DNA from: Crambe crambe
Taxonomy: Eukaryota; Porifera; Demospongiae; Poecilosclerida; Crambeidae
Reading direction: 5' to 3'
DNA length: 64,000 bases
Assembly: GCA_963924555.1 (NCBI GenBank)
Contig: OZ004592.1
Location: forward strand, 248,001-312,000
Shown: positions 15,248 to 27,663 of the stretch, in pieces
How the letters are laid out: each line of letters starts with the position of its first letter
How positions within the stretch are numbered: the stretch's first letter is position 1
The notes under the pieces: model-generated
Told to the model about the DNA's origin: nothing
The model's database searches: none
What the model saw: only the letters and a program-made list of their open reading frames with translations
Program-made: the position numbers and the translations under genes

Positions 15248-18200
15248 ATGGCAAGTGGGTTCGTGGTGCCGGAGCTCCGCCGTGAGCGAGAAGCCAGTAA
15301 GCTGGAGATTTCAGAATTGACATCGTTCTTAGATGGAGGGGATTTCATCACTGAAAAGAGAAGAAGAATGTGTAAGTTTGTGACATGATGAAAGTAGTTG
15401 TGAGTGTGGGTGTGGCATGTTGGGATTCTGCAGTTAAACTGGTGTGTGAGGATCCAGTATTCAATCTGGATGACAAGTACTTCCTGACACGTGAGGAAGC
15501 ATATGACAGAGCGATGGAGAAGTCTGTTCACTACATCAAGAAGTGCAGAGAACTGGACTTGGATGACCTAGAGAAAGAGTTCCTGCAAGTTAATTAATAG
15601 TCTGGCACAGCCAGCCCCAGGCACTTCCACAACTCCAGCACAAGGGTCTGGTAACACACTATGCATTGATGACATTTAATGACGTTAATCTTGTCATAGC
15701 AACACATCTTGCATGAAGAAAATGGCCTCCCGATCCTGTAATAATTCTTATGATTATTATAGCTACCACGCGTCATGAAATGCATTAAACATCATAATGT
15801 GTAGCAATTTCTGCTAAATGGGAACAAGTCAAAGTGTTATGTGTTACCAGACCCTCACACTGGAGTTGCGGAAGTGCCTGGGGCTGCAGACTAGTTAACA
15901 AGAGAAGCCATTCTTTGCCATTGCATTGTATTTCATATGCTAGTGTGGAAACTAGAATGTCTGTTGGTGAGAGGGTTTTAAGTGACCAAGGTAGTTTATA
16001 TTGTGCATGCTTTCCTGACAGTGGTGGTGGAATGTGTGAGGAGCAACCTATTGGCCTCCATGAGGGAATGTTTCTACCCACCATTGAGGTCAGTCTTCCT
16101 CTCTTTACCATTACTCACACCACACTGCAAACAGTGAGCTAGAGATTGTTCATAAGGCCATATTTTTACCATTCATCACCCCACACACAGCCACCCTGCT
16201 ACTTCAAGTGTGCCCACCTAGCATATCTGAAGTTGATTCTTCCCTAATGTGTCTTCCTGCCAACCATTCAGGATCAGGGGACTGAAGAACAGAAGAAGAA
16301 ATGGGTCCCACTTGCCAGAGACTTTAAGATCATTGGAGCTTATGCTCAGACTGAGCTGGGTCATGGTGAGTTAATACGAGACAGACACTACACAAAATCT
16401 CAACTCTGGTAATGTGTGCTTTGTTGAATGTCTATAAGCAATGCTATGAATGTTGTGTGCGCCTTTGCTCTGTAGGTACCAATGTGAGGGGACTGGAGAC
16501 TACTGCTACTTTTGATGAAAAGACACAAGAGTTTGTGATGCACACGCCCACTTTGACTGCCACCAAGTGGTGGCCTGGCACATGTGAGAAAGAACACACG
16601 ATCACACTTACTTGGATTTCATTTTGTTTGATCATTTATTTCAGTGGGCCACAGCTCCACACATGCAGTGGTGCTGGCCAGACTCATCACTAAAGGAGTG
16701 GATCACGGCATTCATCCCTTCATCGTACAAATACGCAGCCTCGAGGACCACACCCCTCTCCCTGGTATCACATGATCAGTTCTTGTAGAGTATAACTACA
16801 TAGGTATTGTAATGTGTGGAATATAGGGATAACTGTTGGTGACATCGGTCCAAAATTTGGCTACTTTGGGATGGATAATGGCTTCTTGGCTTTGAATAAC
16901 GTTCGGATCCCCCGTGATCAAATGCTGATGAAGTATTCTCAAGTGAGTATAACCCTTAATTATTAACACTCCGGTTACCATGGTAAATTCCAAGGTGAGA
17001 CCTGATGGGAGTTATGTTCAACCGCCTACCTCTAAGATAACTTATGGTACGATGGTCATGGTTCGCTCTGGAATAGTCGTATTTGCAGCCAGAAACCTTG
17101 CCAAATGTGTTACTATAGCAACCAGGTACAGTGTTGTGCGCAGACAAGGACAACCGGTAGAAGGGTAAGTATATCATGTGTATAGTGACTGTGACGACCC
17201 TTTACCTATATGTACAGAGGCCCTGAGTGCCAGGTGTTGGATTATCAGACACAGCAGATGAAACTCCTCCCACTAATAGCTTCCAGCTATGCCCTCATTC
17301 AAGCTGGGCAGTACATGTTGCGGCACTATGCTCAGGCAAGAGCTGAGATAGCCCAGGGGAATTTTGACTGTATGCCTGAGGTAAGTATCTCTTCCCTTTG
17401 ATGGGAATAAAATAAGTTCTCTCAATTCTGCAGTTACATGCAACTAGTTCTGGACTGAAGGCATTCAGTAGTGATGTCTCTACTCAAGGCATGGAGGTAT
17501 ATTTCATTGGTGGTTTCACTGCCCTGCACCTTTGAAATTTTACTCCAGATATGTCGTATAGCATGTGGTGGACATGGTTACTCCCGTGCTTCTGGTATCC
17601 CTGACATTTACGTGGATATGTCGCCTTCTGTCACTTATGAAGGAGAGAACACAGTCCTCTACCTCCAGACAGCAAGGTCCCTCACCCCTCGCCCTATAGT
17701 ATACCAGTGCTAAATATCCCTCCTCTTTCTCTCTCCTTAGGTATTTGAACAAGATGTTTTCCTCCAATCTATCTTCCTCTGAGTTGCCAGAGAACATTGC
17801 CTACCTTGGGAAGGACTTTGTAGTGCGTCCCACCTCTTCTGTGAAGACCCCATCTCAGTTCATGGATCCTCATGTGCAGCTGGATATCTACCAGCAGAGA
17901 GCTCGCAGGTACAAAGTCCACATTACAGTGTTAACATGACCTCAACTCTAATTGTCATTAGAATGGTTGAGTTGGCAGCTGGAACTTACCAGAGAGGTTT
18001 GCAACGAGGGTTGAAGCAGCCAGATGCTTGGAATGAATCTTCCTATGATTGGACTGTAGCTGCCAATGTGTGTCAGTCCAGCCTAAGTTATGACACATAC
18101 TGACCACTGTCATTGCAGGCTCACTGCCACTACATCACCCTGAAAGCATTCCGAGAGTCCATTCAGTACAGTTCCTTGTCTGGTAGCAATCTGGCCATGA

Positions 18201-18643
18201 TGGAGGCCTTGTGTGCTCTCTTTGCCACTTTCGGTGTCCTCAAATACGCAGGACACTTCAGTACTGTAAGTCACATGACAAATCACATGCAAACTCCCTA
18301 ATCTCTATTTCATTCTCGTAGGGAGGATACATGTCCTCAGAGCAAATCTCTTTTGCTCGAGAGGAGCTGTATGTCCTCCTCAAGGAAGTGAGGAAGGAGG
18401 CAGTACCTTTGGTCGATGCCTTTGACTTTCCTGATAAAATACTCAACTCAGCTCTGGGTCGCTCTGATGGCGATGTTTATAACCATCTCTACAAGTGGGC
18501 TCTAAAAGCTCCACGCAATAAGAAACAAGTAAGACCCTGCTCATCAGTAGAGGTGGTGTGTGTTTATGTGTTACCATGACTCACTGCAGGTACATGATAC
18601 TTACCACAAGCACCTCAAGAAACTGCTCAAGTCAAAGTTATGA
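15248..18643 (+). CDS. ACOX1: Peroxisomal acyl-CoA oxidase 1, tandem copy 1
   Basis: FAD enzyme that starts peroxisomal beta-oxidation by making trans-2-enoyl-CoA and hydrogen peroxide. It reads [15 protein letters not shown], then [50 protein letters not shown], the [11 protein letters not shown] block, [19 protein letters not shown], and [14 protein letters not shown], whose Glu aligns with the catalytic base. It ends LLKSKL with a PTS1 SKL. A MITE (15598-15894) follows exon 2. The visible GT donor there (CTGCAA|GTTAAT) breaks the frame into exon 3a (16022-16088), but a GC-AG donor (TTCCT|GCAAGT) restores it: [11 protein letters not shown]. Versions 3b and 3c of the exon are decayed here. 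Possibly functional through the GC donor, otherwise failing. Confidence 0.85.
15598..15894. mobile_element. MITE of about 300 bp with TTAA flanks
   Basis: The outer arms, about 60 bases each (15598-15660 and 15835-15894), are inverted repeats sharing blocks such as CCCAGGCACTTCC and GGGTCTGGTAACACA. The ends read TAGTCTG and CAGACTAG. TTAA lies on both sides (15590-15597 holds it twice; 15895-15898), the target signature of piggyBac-like transposons. There is no coding capacity. It abuts the exon 2 splice donor of ACOX1 copy 1. Copy 2 has no such insert at the matching intron. Confidence 0.75.
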
Positions 18644-18781: not shown

Positions 18782-19455
18782 ATGGCAGAAGCTAGTGGGT
18801 TCGTGGTACCGGAGCTCCGCCGTGAGCGAGAAGCCACTAAGCTGGAGATTTCAGAATTGACTGCGTTCTTAGATGGAGGGGATTTCATTACTGAAAAGAG
18901 AAGAAGAATGTGTAAGTTAGTGACAGGATGAAAATAGGTGGGTGTGGCATGTTGGGATTCTGCAGTTAAACTGGTGTGTGAGGATCCAGTGTTCAATCTG
19001 GATGACAAGTATTTCCTGACACGTGAGGAAGCATATGACAGAGCGATGGAGAAGTCTGTTCACTACATCAAGAAGTGCAGAGAACTGGACTTGGATGACC
19101 TAGAGAAACACTTCCTGAAAAGGTACTTTTACAAGAAAGGCTTTTGCTTGATTAATTATTTCATATGCCAATTAATGTAAAGTGTGGACTAGAATGTCTG
19201 TTGGTAGGAGAGGGTTTTAAGTGACCAAGGTAGTTTATATTGTGCATGCTTTCCATGACAGTGGAATGTGTGAGGAGCAACCTACTAGCCTCCATGAGGG
19301 AATGTTTCTACCTACCATTGAGGTCAGTCTTCCTCTCTTTACCATTACTCACACACCACACTGCAAACAGTGAGCTAGAGATTGCAATCTTTGTTCATGA
19401 GGCTATGTTTTTACCAGTCATCAAGGTCAGTCATTGCTAGAATTCATCCCCCCCC

Positions 19456-19486
<31 letters not shown>

Positions 19487-21962
19487 ACACACACACATCC
19501 ACCCTGCTACTCCCTCCACATGTGTGCCCACCTAGCATGTCTGAAGTTGATTCTTCCCTGGCTCTGCATGATGGTGTCTTCCTGCCTACCATTCAGGGTC
19601 AGGGGACTGAGGAACAGAATAAGAAATGGGTCCCACTTGCCAAAGACTTCAAGATCATTGGAGCTTATGCTCAGACTGAGCTGGGTCATGGTAAGTTGGA
19701 GAGAAGAACTCCATGATTTGTTGAATGTGTTGCACTGCATGGAATGGTGGATGGTATGTGCCTTTGGTCTGTAGGTACCAATGTGAGGGGACTGGAGACT
19801 ACTGCTACTTTTGATGAAAAGACACAAGAGTTTGTGATGCACACGCCCACTTTGACTGCCACCAAGTGGTGGCCTGGCACATGTGAGAAAGAACACACGA
19901 TCACACTTACTTGGATTTCATTTTGTTTGATCATTTATTTCAGTGGGCCACAGCTCCACACATGCAGTGGTGCTGGCCAGACTCATCACTAAAGGAGTGG
20001 ATCACGGCATTCATCCCTTCATCGTACAAATACGCAGCCTCGAGGACCACACCCCTCTCCCTGGTATCACATGATCAGTTCTTGTAGAGTATAACTACAT
20101 AGGTATTGTAATGTGTGGAATATAGGGATAACTGTTGGTGACATCGGTCCAAAATTTGGCTACTTTGGGATGGATAATGGCTTCTTGACTTTGAATAACG
20201 TTCGGATCCCCCGTGATCAAATGCTGATGAAGTATTCTCAAGTGAGTGTAACCCTTAATTATTAACACTCCGGTTACCATGGTAAATTCCAAGGTGAGAC
20301 CTGATGGGAGTTATGTTCAACCGCCTACCTCTAAGATAACTTATGGTACGATGGTCATGGTTCGCTCTGGAATAGTCGTATTTGCAGCCAGAAGCCTTGC
20401 CAAATGTGTTACTATAGCAACCAGGTACAGTGTTGTGCGCAGACAAGGACAACCGGTAGAAGGGTAAGTATATCATGTGTATAGTGACTGTGACGACCCT
20501 TTACCTATATGTACAGAGGCCCTGAGTGCCAGGTGTTGGATTATCAGACACAGCAGATGAAACTCCTCCCACTAATAGCTTCCAGCTATGCCCTCATTCA
20601 AGCTGGGCAGTACATGTTGCGGCACTATGCTCAGGCAAGAGCTGAGATAGCCCAGGGGAATTTTGACTGTATGCCTGAGGTAAGTATCTCTTCCCTTTGA
20701 TGTGGTGTGGAATGAAGCAAGATCTCTCGCTATTTTCCATTCTGCAGTTACATGCAACTAGTTCTGGACTGAAGGCATTCAGTAGTGATGTCTCTACTCA
20801 AGGCATGGAGGTATGTTCCAGCCTTAATAACTTCCTTTTCATTGGTGGCTTCACTGGGTTCATTTATTACTCCAGATATGTCGTTTAGCATGTGGTGGAC
20901 ATGGTTACTCCCGTGCTTCTGGTATCCCTGACATTTACGTGGATATGTCGCCTTCTGTCACTTATGAAGGAGAGAACACAGTCCTCTACCTCCAGACAGC
21001 AAGGTCCCTCACCCCTCGCCCTATAGTATACCAGTGCTAAATATCCCTCCTCTTTCTCTCTCCTTAGGTATTTGAACAAGATGTTTTCCTCCAATCTATC
21101 TTCCTCTGAGTTGCCAGAGAACATTGCCTACCTTGGGAAGGACTTTGTAGTGCGTCCCACCTCTTCTGTGAAGACCCCATCTCAGTTCATGGATCCTCAT
21201 GTGCAGCTGGATATCTACCAGCAGAGAGCTCGCAGGTACAAAGTCCACATTACAGTGTTAACATGACCTCAACTCTAATTGTCATTAGAATGGTTGAGTT
21301 GGCAGCTGGAACTTACCAGAGAGGTTTGCAACGAGGGTTGAAGCAGCCAGATGCTTGGAATGAATCTTCCTATGATTGGACTGTAGCTGCCAATGTGTGT
21401 CAGTCCAGCCTAAGTTATGACACATACTGACCACTGTCATTGCAGGCTCACTGCCACTACATCACCCTGAAAGCATTCCGAGAGTCCATTCAGTACAGCT
21501 CCTTGTCTGGTAGCAATCTGGCCATGATGGAGGCCTTGTGTGCTCTCTTTGCCACTTTCGGTGTCCTCAAATACGCAGGACACTTCAGTACTGTAAGTCA
21601 CATTACAAATCACATGCAAACTCCCTAATCTCTATTTCATTCTCGTAGGGAGGATACATGTCCTCAGAGCAAATCTCTTTTGCTCGAGAGGAGCTGTATG
21701 TCCTCCTCAAGGAAGTGAGGAAGGAGGCAGTACCTTTGGTCGATGCCTTTGACTTTCCTGATAAAGTACTCAACTCAGCTCTGGGTCGCTCTGATGGCGA
21801 TGTTTATAACCATCTCTACAAGTGGGCTCTAAAAGCTCCACGCAATAAGAAACAAGTAAGACCCTGCTCATCAGTAGAGGTGGTGTGTGTTTATGTGTGT
21901 CACTGCAGGTGCATGATACTTACCACAAGCACCTCAAGAAACTGCTCAAGTCAAAGTTATGA
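18782..21962 (+). CDS. ACOX1: Peroxisomal acyl-CoA oxidase 1, tandem copy 2
   Basis: Complete acyl-CoA oxidase with clean splicing. Exon 1 is 18782-18911 ([17 protein letters not shown]). Exon 2 is 18966-19122, ending FLK plus AG before donor GTACTT. A choice of three short exons follows (19262-19596), then [44 protein letters not shown], the GTMVMVRS region, [26 protein letters not shown] with the catalytic Glu, and the C-terminal alpha domain ending in the PTS1 SKL. The length of about 650 residues is normal for the family. From about 19780 on, it is almost identical to copy 1 (from about 16480), including most introns, whereas the 5' portions differ much more. It is convergent with the DGK gene about 130 bases away. 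Confidence 0.92.
19262..19596 (+). other. ACOX1: Mutually exclusive exon trio 3a/3b/3c of ACOX1 copy 2
   Basis: Three alternative versions of one exon. 3a is 19262-19322 (61 nt, [18 protein letters not shown]). 3b is 19371-19425 (55 nt, [18 protein letters not shown]). 3c is 19536-19596 (61 nt, [18 protein letters not shown]), fused directly to the next constant exon, which has its own acceptor CATTCAG at 19596. Each enters in phase 2 and leaves in phase 0. 3a and 3b are followed by the same donor GTCAGTC. Joining 3a to 3b gives GAG TGA; joining 3a or 3b to 3c gives CAT GTC TGA. Only single use keeps the frame. The segment corresponds to the LHLGMFLPT region of human ACOX1, within its known alternative exons 3. 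Confidence 0.8.
19448..19496 (+). repeat. Poly(C) plus (AC)n compound tract in ACOX1 copy 2
   Basis: About 25 C followed by about 12 AC units, lying between exon versions 3b and 3c. Copy 1 has no comparable tract. The length may be imprecise because such tracts sequence poorly. Confidence 0.9.

Positions 21963-22093: not shown

Positions 22094-27663
<5,570 letters not shown>

Follow-up and report, generated by a model that had tools for sequence, protein, structure and literature searches.

Does an acyl-CoA oxidase gene of the sponge Crambe crambe hold three interchangeable coding units at the site where mammalian ACOX1 switches between exons 3a and 3b, and, if so, do the sponge units share their make-up and origin with the mammalian pair? 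The question is raised by ACOX1 copy 2, the second of two ACOX1 genes arranged head to tail, with a gap of 138 bases between them, in the window (the 64-kb stretch of contig OZ004592.1 analysed here). The analysis covered one species and was performed on genome sequence alone. The locus is probably, though far from certainly, a cassette formed by tandem exon duplication within ACOX1, in which the reading frame would enforce the choice of a single unit.

Gene pair and the three candidate units

Sequence comparison identifies copy 2 as ACOX1, its best matches among solved structures being rat and human ACOX1 over the full length (3a form against rat ACOX1, 1is2, E=3.3e-194, residues 10-662; against human ACOX1, 7q84, E=5.4e-194, residues 9-662). 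The domains PF14749 (Acyl-CoA_ox_N) and PF02770 (middle domain) scored above cut-off in fragments of all three predicted isoforms. The translation ends in SKL, a peroxisomal targeting signal, and exon 4 includes the stretch in which the FAD contacts of the ACOX family are expected. The coordinates of the gene models and of the units are given in Table 1.

Table 1. Features of the two ACOX1 genes and of the cassette (positions in the window)
Feature	Position	Strand	Remarks
ACOX1 copy 1 (tandem paralogue)	15248..18643	+	Two open readings
Copy 1 unit 3a, 67 nt	16022..16088	+	Intact
Copy 1 3b remnant	16135..16180	+	9-nt gap, donor lost
Copy 1 region aligned to 3c	16212..16271	+	11-nt deletion, frame lost; end kept as exon 4 acceptor
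ACOX1 copy 2	18782..21962	+	Exons 1, 2, one of three units, exons 4-16
Copy 2 exon 1	18782..18911	+	ATG at 18782; open frame into exon 2; donor GTAAGT
Copy 2 exon 2	18966..19122	+	Phase 2 at end; donor AAG/GTACTT
Copy 2 unit 3a, 61 nt	19262..19322	+	ORF and splice sites; joint top motif match; only unit intact in copy 1
Copy 2 unit 3b, 55 nt	19371..19425	+	ORF and splice sites; motif match 34.75; broken in copy 1
C25 run (19448-19472) and AC repeat (19473-19496) between 3b and 3c	19448..19496	+	
Copy 2 unit 3c, 61 nt, continuous with exon 4	19536..19596	+	ORF; motif match 39.0
Coding end of 3c, pyrimidine tract and CAG of internal acceptor (3a-4, 3b-4 joining)	19576..19596	+	
Copy 2 exon 4, constitutive	19597..19690	+	Starts GQGTEEQ; expected FAD-contact stretch inside
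Copy 2 exons 5-16	19775..21962	+	Translation ends SKL, then stop

Within the 143 Mb genome, a PF01756 profile search recovered the two window genes and one diverged acyl-CoA oxidase-like gene, and PF14749 yielded four matches, all within the two window ACOX1 genes; for both searches, scores are given for the best candidates only. The best PF14749 match (19552-19659, 48.1 bits) spans 3c and continues into exon 4. The diverged third gene is located on the same contig at 5334500-5343500 (~5.34 Mb) and is, by impression, taken to be ACOX3-like. Among the genome contigs searched, one relative was found, an ACOX sharing 52% identity with the sponge enzyme, on a contig labelled as alphaproteobacterium; a search of viral contigs for related loci found none. 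Inspection by eye of this MAG-derived ACOX showed an uninterrupted core and GQGT stretch, resembling 3c joined to exon 4, preceded by a stretch rich in glycine and serine. The contig is possibly a eukaryotic contaminant. Adjoining ACOX1 copy 2, minus-strand ORF pieces and cysteine/histidine-rich stretches were observed at about 22100-27000, which appear by motif to resemble a diacylglycerol kinase, and a long GA microsatellite is present at about 24362-24517.

The initial annotation had described three candidate exons of 61, 55 and 61 nt that enter in phase 2, leave in phase 0 and exclude one another by frame. The lengths were borne out, as were the entries and exits, with AG preceding each unit and GT following 3a and 3b. 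Placed individually between exons 2 and 4, each unit gave a protein open to its stop codon (663 aa with 3a, 661 aa with 3b and 663 aa with 3c), in agreement with the annotated phases. Every pairwise joining was shown to stop early (first stop at codon 117 for 3a+3b, 119 for 3a+3c and 117 for 3b+3c), as did the joining of all three units (codon 117), and the skipping of all units led to a first stop at codon 131. The annotated fusion of 3c with the next exon, with a second acceptor inside, was likewise found: 3c passes without a break into exon 4 to form a single exon of 155 nt, in which a CAG occupies 19594-19596. As 3c continues into exon 4, introns do not flank each unit on both sides, and the cassette, which combines exclusive exons with an alternative 3' splice site, is not purely of the exclusive-exon type.

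The homology of neighbouring units was evident from a motif scan, from Pfam scores and from alignments. When four solved ACOX core segments were used as the query against all six frames of the 64 kb, the four highest matches were unit 3a, with an equal score of 42.6 in both gene copies, followed by 3c and 3b, the next match (31.75) scoring slightly under 3b. On N-terminal fragments of about 260 aa each, PF14749 gave 120.5, 112.8 and 106.1 bits for the 3a, 3c and 3b forms, respectively, compared with 79.1 bits when the cassette was masked, representing a gain of 27-41 bits per unit. Homology between 3b and 3c is apparent at the protein level only, their DNA alignment being no better than shuffles (z -0.1). 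Comparison of the flanks of the three units revealed no clear similarity (z -0.6 to 1.6; the downstream flank of 3c is exon 4), and RNA folding across the cassette showed nothing unusual (z +1.0). The data support a set of three homologous units, only one of which at a time would fit into an mRNA that keeps its reading frame.

Copy 1 and the history of the cassette

The whole trio is also found in copy 1, where two of the three units are broken and only 3a is kept. Since copy 1 carries all three regions, the trio was present before the ACOX1 gene was duplicated. Copy 1 retains the 3a donor and the internal exon 4 acceptor despite its broken 3b and 3c. Conservation at the end of 3c is uninformative on coding, because the same 21 bases serve as the exon 4 acceptor and copy 1 retains 20 of them despite its dead 3c. 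Selection on the acceptor could by itself explain why the end of 3c is conserved, and the LALHDG codons ahead of the last 21 bases represent a better sign of coding in 3c than those bases.

Two readings of copy 1 were shown to be open. Reading A would employ a GC donor after 15584 (CCT/GCAAGT, score 3.07), keep the phase and encode 661 aa, and reading B would employ a GT donor after 15588 together with an acceptor before 16041 and encode 656 aa. Pairing this GT donor with the acceptor normally assigned to 3a, at 16022, was rejected, as the product stops at codon 99. A multi-copy inverted-repeat (MITE-like) element was observed at about 15597-15886, just 3' of copy 1 exon 2 and beside TTAA; at least 148 matching pieces, including the element itself, occur genome-wide (the best 40 of 155 candidates were scored). 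The element starts about 12 bases past the candidate GC donor and may have damaged the original exon 2 donor of copy 1.

Comparison of 16272-18643 with 19597-21962 revealed near-identity from exon 5 on, several introns included; exons 1-4 have diverged. Across exons 1-4, differences between the copies affect 8 of 87 synonymous sites and 9 of 333 non-synonymous ones (Fisher p=0.012; 140 gap-free codon pairs, with the ends of exon 2 and the start of 3a left out). Exons 5-16 contain two synonymous and four non-synonymous changes in 1,548 bases. Introns 5, 6, 8 and 11-13 are identical, whereas introns 4, 9 and 10 are clearly different, a pattern that fits patchy gene conversion between the copies, which would have spared the cassette end.

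Signs of use and alternative readings

Among the three cores, 11, 4 and 17 of 33 sites differ at codon positions 1, 2 and 3, respectively, and the excess at position 3 over position 2 corresponds to a Fisher p of 0.0012, summed over three non-independent pairs. This periodicity is visible between 3a and 3c (2, 0 and 6 differences at positions 1, 2 and 3 over 11 codons), whereas the branch leading to 3b is without it (about 3.5, 2 and 2.5 changes). The donors of 3a and 3b scored 8.3 and 9.2, inside the range of 15 distinct constitutive donors (1.9-10.3), that of 3b being the strongest in the cassette. The entry acceptors of 3a (-2.97) and 3b (-3.63) exceed only two of 17 distinct constitutive acceptors (-5.7 to 13.3), and that of 3c (-10.75) is lower than all of them; the internal exon 4 acceptor scored 5.71 and is 81% pyrimidine. 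The spacer between 3a and 3b measures 48 nt, compared with 51 nt for the shortest of the 30 introns modelled in both ACOX1 genes, and could sterically hinder 3a-3b joining. Poly-C or CA-repeat splicing factors could bind C25/AC tracts, and the tract between 3b and 3c is possibly a regulatory element.

A rather unlikely reading, but one with several observations on its side, is that 3a alone is used and that the 3b and 3c of copy 2 are decaying remnants of duplicated exons, a state that both have already reached in copy 1. Both units have been lost in copy 1, 3c has an entry acceptor weaker than any constitutive one, and 3b is without codon periodicity. Furthermore, 10 of 96 aligned bases of 3b and 3c differ between the copies (6/46 and 4/50), a divergence that is not below the synonymous rate of exons 1-4 and is hence neutral-like. 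In neutral simulations of 4.6% change with substitutions only, 66% of runs ended with 3b and 3c both open and their splice dinucleotides in place, and intactness alone is for this reason weak evidence of use. However, the proportion dropped to about 9% when two indels were expected, as in copy 1, and to 4.5% when H, F and P of both cores were also required. Moreover, as read by eye from the alignments, those differences to which family conservation and splice sites assign a direction are changes in copy 1, and 3b and 3c each add at least 27 bits to the Pfam score. The intactness of 3b and 3c in copy 2 is modest evidence of use, given that this copy was noticed for being intact.

A switch between two states, 3a and 3c, by alternative 3' splice sites, with 3b already dead, would account for the mostly third-position differences between 3a and 3c and for the absence of such a pattern in 3b. 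This appears unlikely, as no donor in the cassette is stronger than that of 3b, the 3b acceptor scores close to that of 3a, and the weakest acceptor is that of 3c. An assembly or allelic artefact, which the C25/AC microsatellite within the cassette might suggest, is scarcely credible: the three units have open frames, the layout is repeated in copy 1, and a DNA search of the 143 Mb assembly with the cassette matched, at E 0.01, no locus other than the two in the window. Judged from these sequence features, use of 3a is near certain, that of 3c likely and that of 3b possible; 3a is probably the default form.

Place in the enzyme, origin and significance

The sponge junction K95/S96 aligns with K/N of rat ACOX1; the printed human alignment sets the gap differently there. 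On the assumption that the human unit starts at this junction, exactly 55 residues separate the K/S-equivalent junction from GHG in the human sequence, and sponge exon 4 also ends at GHG. With these 55 residues, 3c plus exon 4 (155 nt) is equivalent to the whole mammalian exon 3, and the sponge duplication would be limited to the 18-20 aa with which that equivalent exon begins. The human alternative region is given as 55 aa (PMC9741552), 28 of which are conserved between the forms, including all five predicted FAD-binding residues.

A match to LCAD (chain 99-148 against positions 4-53 of 3a plus exon 4, 50 versus 50, E 0.0013, given as ranges only) places the cassette at the LCAD loop and at the beginning of helix E (134-148); the loop is represented by the part of the units that comes first and has diverged. 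The LCAD chain numbering was taken to start with residue 31 as index 1 (offset 30). Of the 25 LCAD cavity residues listed in PMC11153573, seven map to the cassette (C129, S130, G131, P132, G133, I136 and I140) and N128 does so by one residue of extrapolation, the other 17 lying outside. Wall positions in 3a/3b/3c are L/V/L and M/M/V. As the swapped residues, by this alignment, lie in the loop and at the beginning of helix E, next to the acyl pocket, and the flavin stretch is constitutive, a swap of units would likely alter the acyl substrate range with the flavin chemistry intact. The aligned stretch in LCAD, the P-loop and the start of helix E, is described as widening the acyl cavity (PMC11153573); it is fixed in the LCAD gene, whereas in sponge ACOX1 it would be chosen by splicing.

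The initial annotation had placed the cassette at the site of mammalian exons 3a/3b. The two sites do overlap, but only the first 18-20 aa are swapped in the sponge, as opposed to 55 aa, and the duplicated unit is not the same. As with mammalian ACOX1a and ACOX1b, homologous units employed singly (by prediction in the sponge) lie at the substrate side of an enzyme of the same gene family, behind the same 5' junction in the rat alignment. Mammals, however, have two forms of 55 aa that include the FAD residues, whereas the sponge has three units, its flavin stretch is constitutive and its last unit is fused to the next exon. The further claim that the mammalian forms differ in chain-length preference is partly backed, a review table listing ACOX1a as less active on palmitoyl-CoA than ACOX1b (PMC12318918). 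The annotation had also left the choice between independent evolution and ancient sharing. Because the duplicated units differ, an independent origin of the sponge and mammalian units is likelier, and ancient sharing is disfavoured. Descent of the trio from an early animal, with later trimming of the sponge units, would fit the shared gene and the shared 5' boundary in the rat alignment (the gap in the human alignment being placed differently), but is improbable in view of the different lengths of the swapped unit and of the convergent origin of homologous exclusive exons in orthologous genes, which is documented (PMC9741552).

Homologous exclusive exons are already known. Tandem duplicated exon substitution events in human, fly and worm similarly involve adjoining homologous exons, one per transcript there and, by prediction, in the sponge; unlike in those events, one sponge unit is defined by an alternative acceptor within a longer exon, and its coding end is a splice signal. 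The sponge cassette differs in having a narrower unit, a third unit and a fused unit with codons doubling as splice signal. Among the literature records listed, none described an exclusive ACOX1 exon set in sponges; no search combined sponge with acyl-CoA oxidase.

In the explanation that we prefer, a tandem-exon-duplication cassette, an ancestral exon corresponding to the whole mammalian exon 3 would have become today's 3c plus exon 4, and its first third would have been copied upstream to give 3a and 3b, an order of duplication that we infer from the sequence. Within this old exon, a run of codons with ATT CAG at its end would double as a 3' splice site, allowing 3a or 3b to be joined to exon 4. 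With exon 2 ending in phase 2 and the units leaving in phase 0, the predicted routes are 2-3a-4, 2-3b-4 or 2-3c/4, at least two of which would be spliced in copy 2, and multiple inclusion or skipping would create early stops. The outcome would be a swap of 18-20 residues in the wall of the fatty-acyl pocket, leaving the flavin stretch of exon 4 unchanged. In its fullest form, this explanation describes an independent, three-state, splicing-selected acyl-pocket module in sponge ACOX1 that is narrower than its mammalian counterpart, in which the codons of one isoform are the splice signal for the other two, and of which copy 1 has been fixed to a single state and copy 2 has kept three; we put this forward tentatively, as possible rather than probable.

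If real, two distant animal lineages would each have made ACOX1 switchable at this one pocket wall, through two different duplications, and this stretch of the wall would represent a favoured site for tuning the fatty-acid range by splicing. Unlike the mammalian 55-aa swap, the narrow sponge unit would separate effects on the pocket from those on the flavin, making the isoforms a clean test, and the two copies would provide a natural comparison, one being frozen and the other retaining all options.
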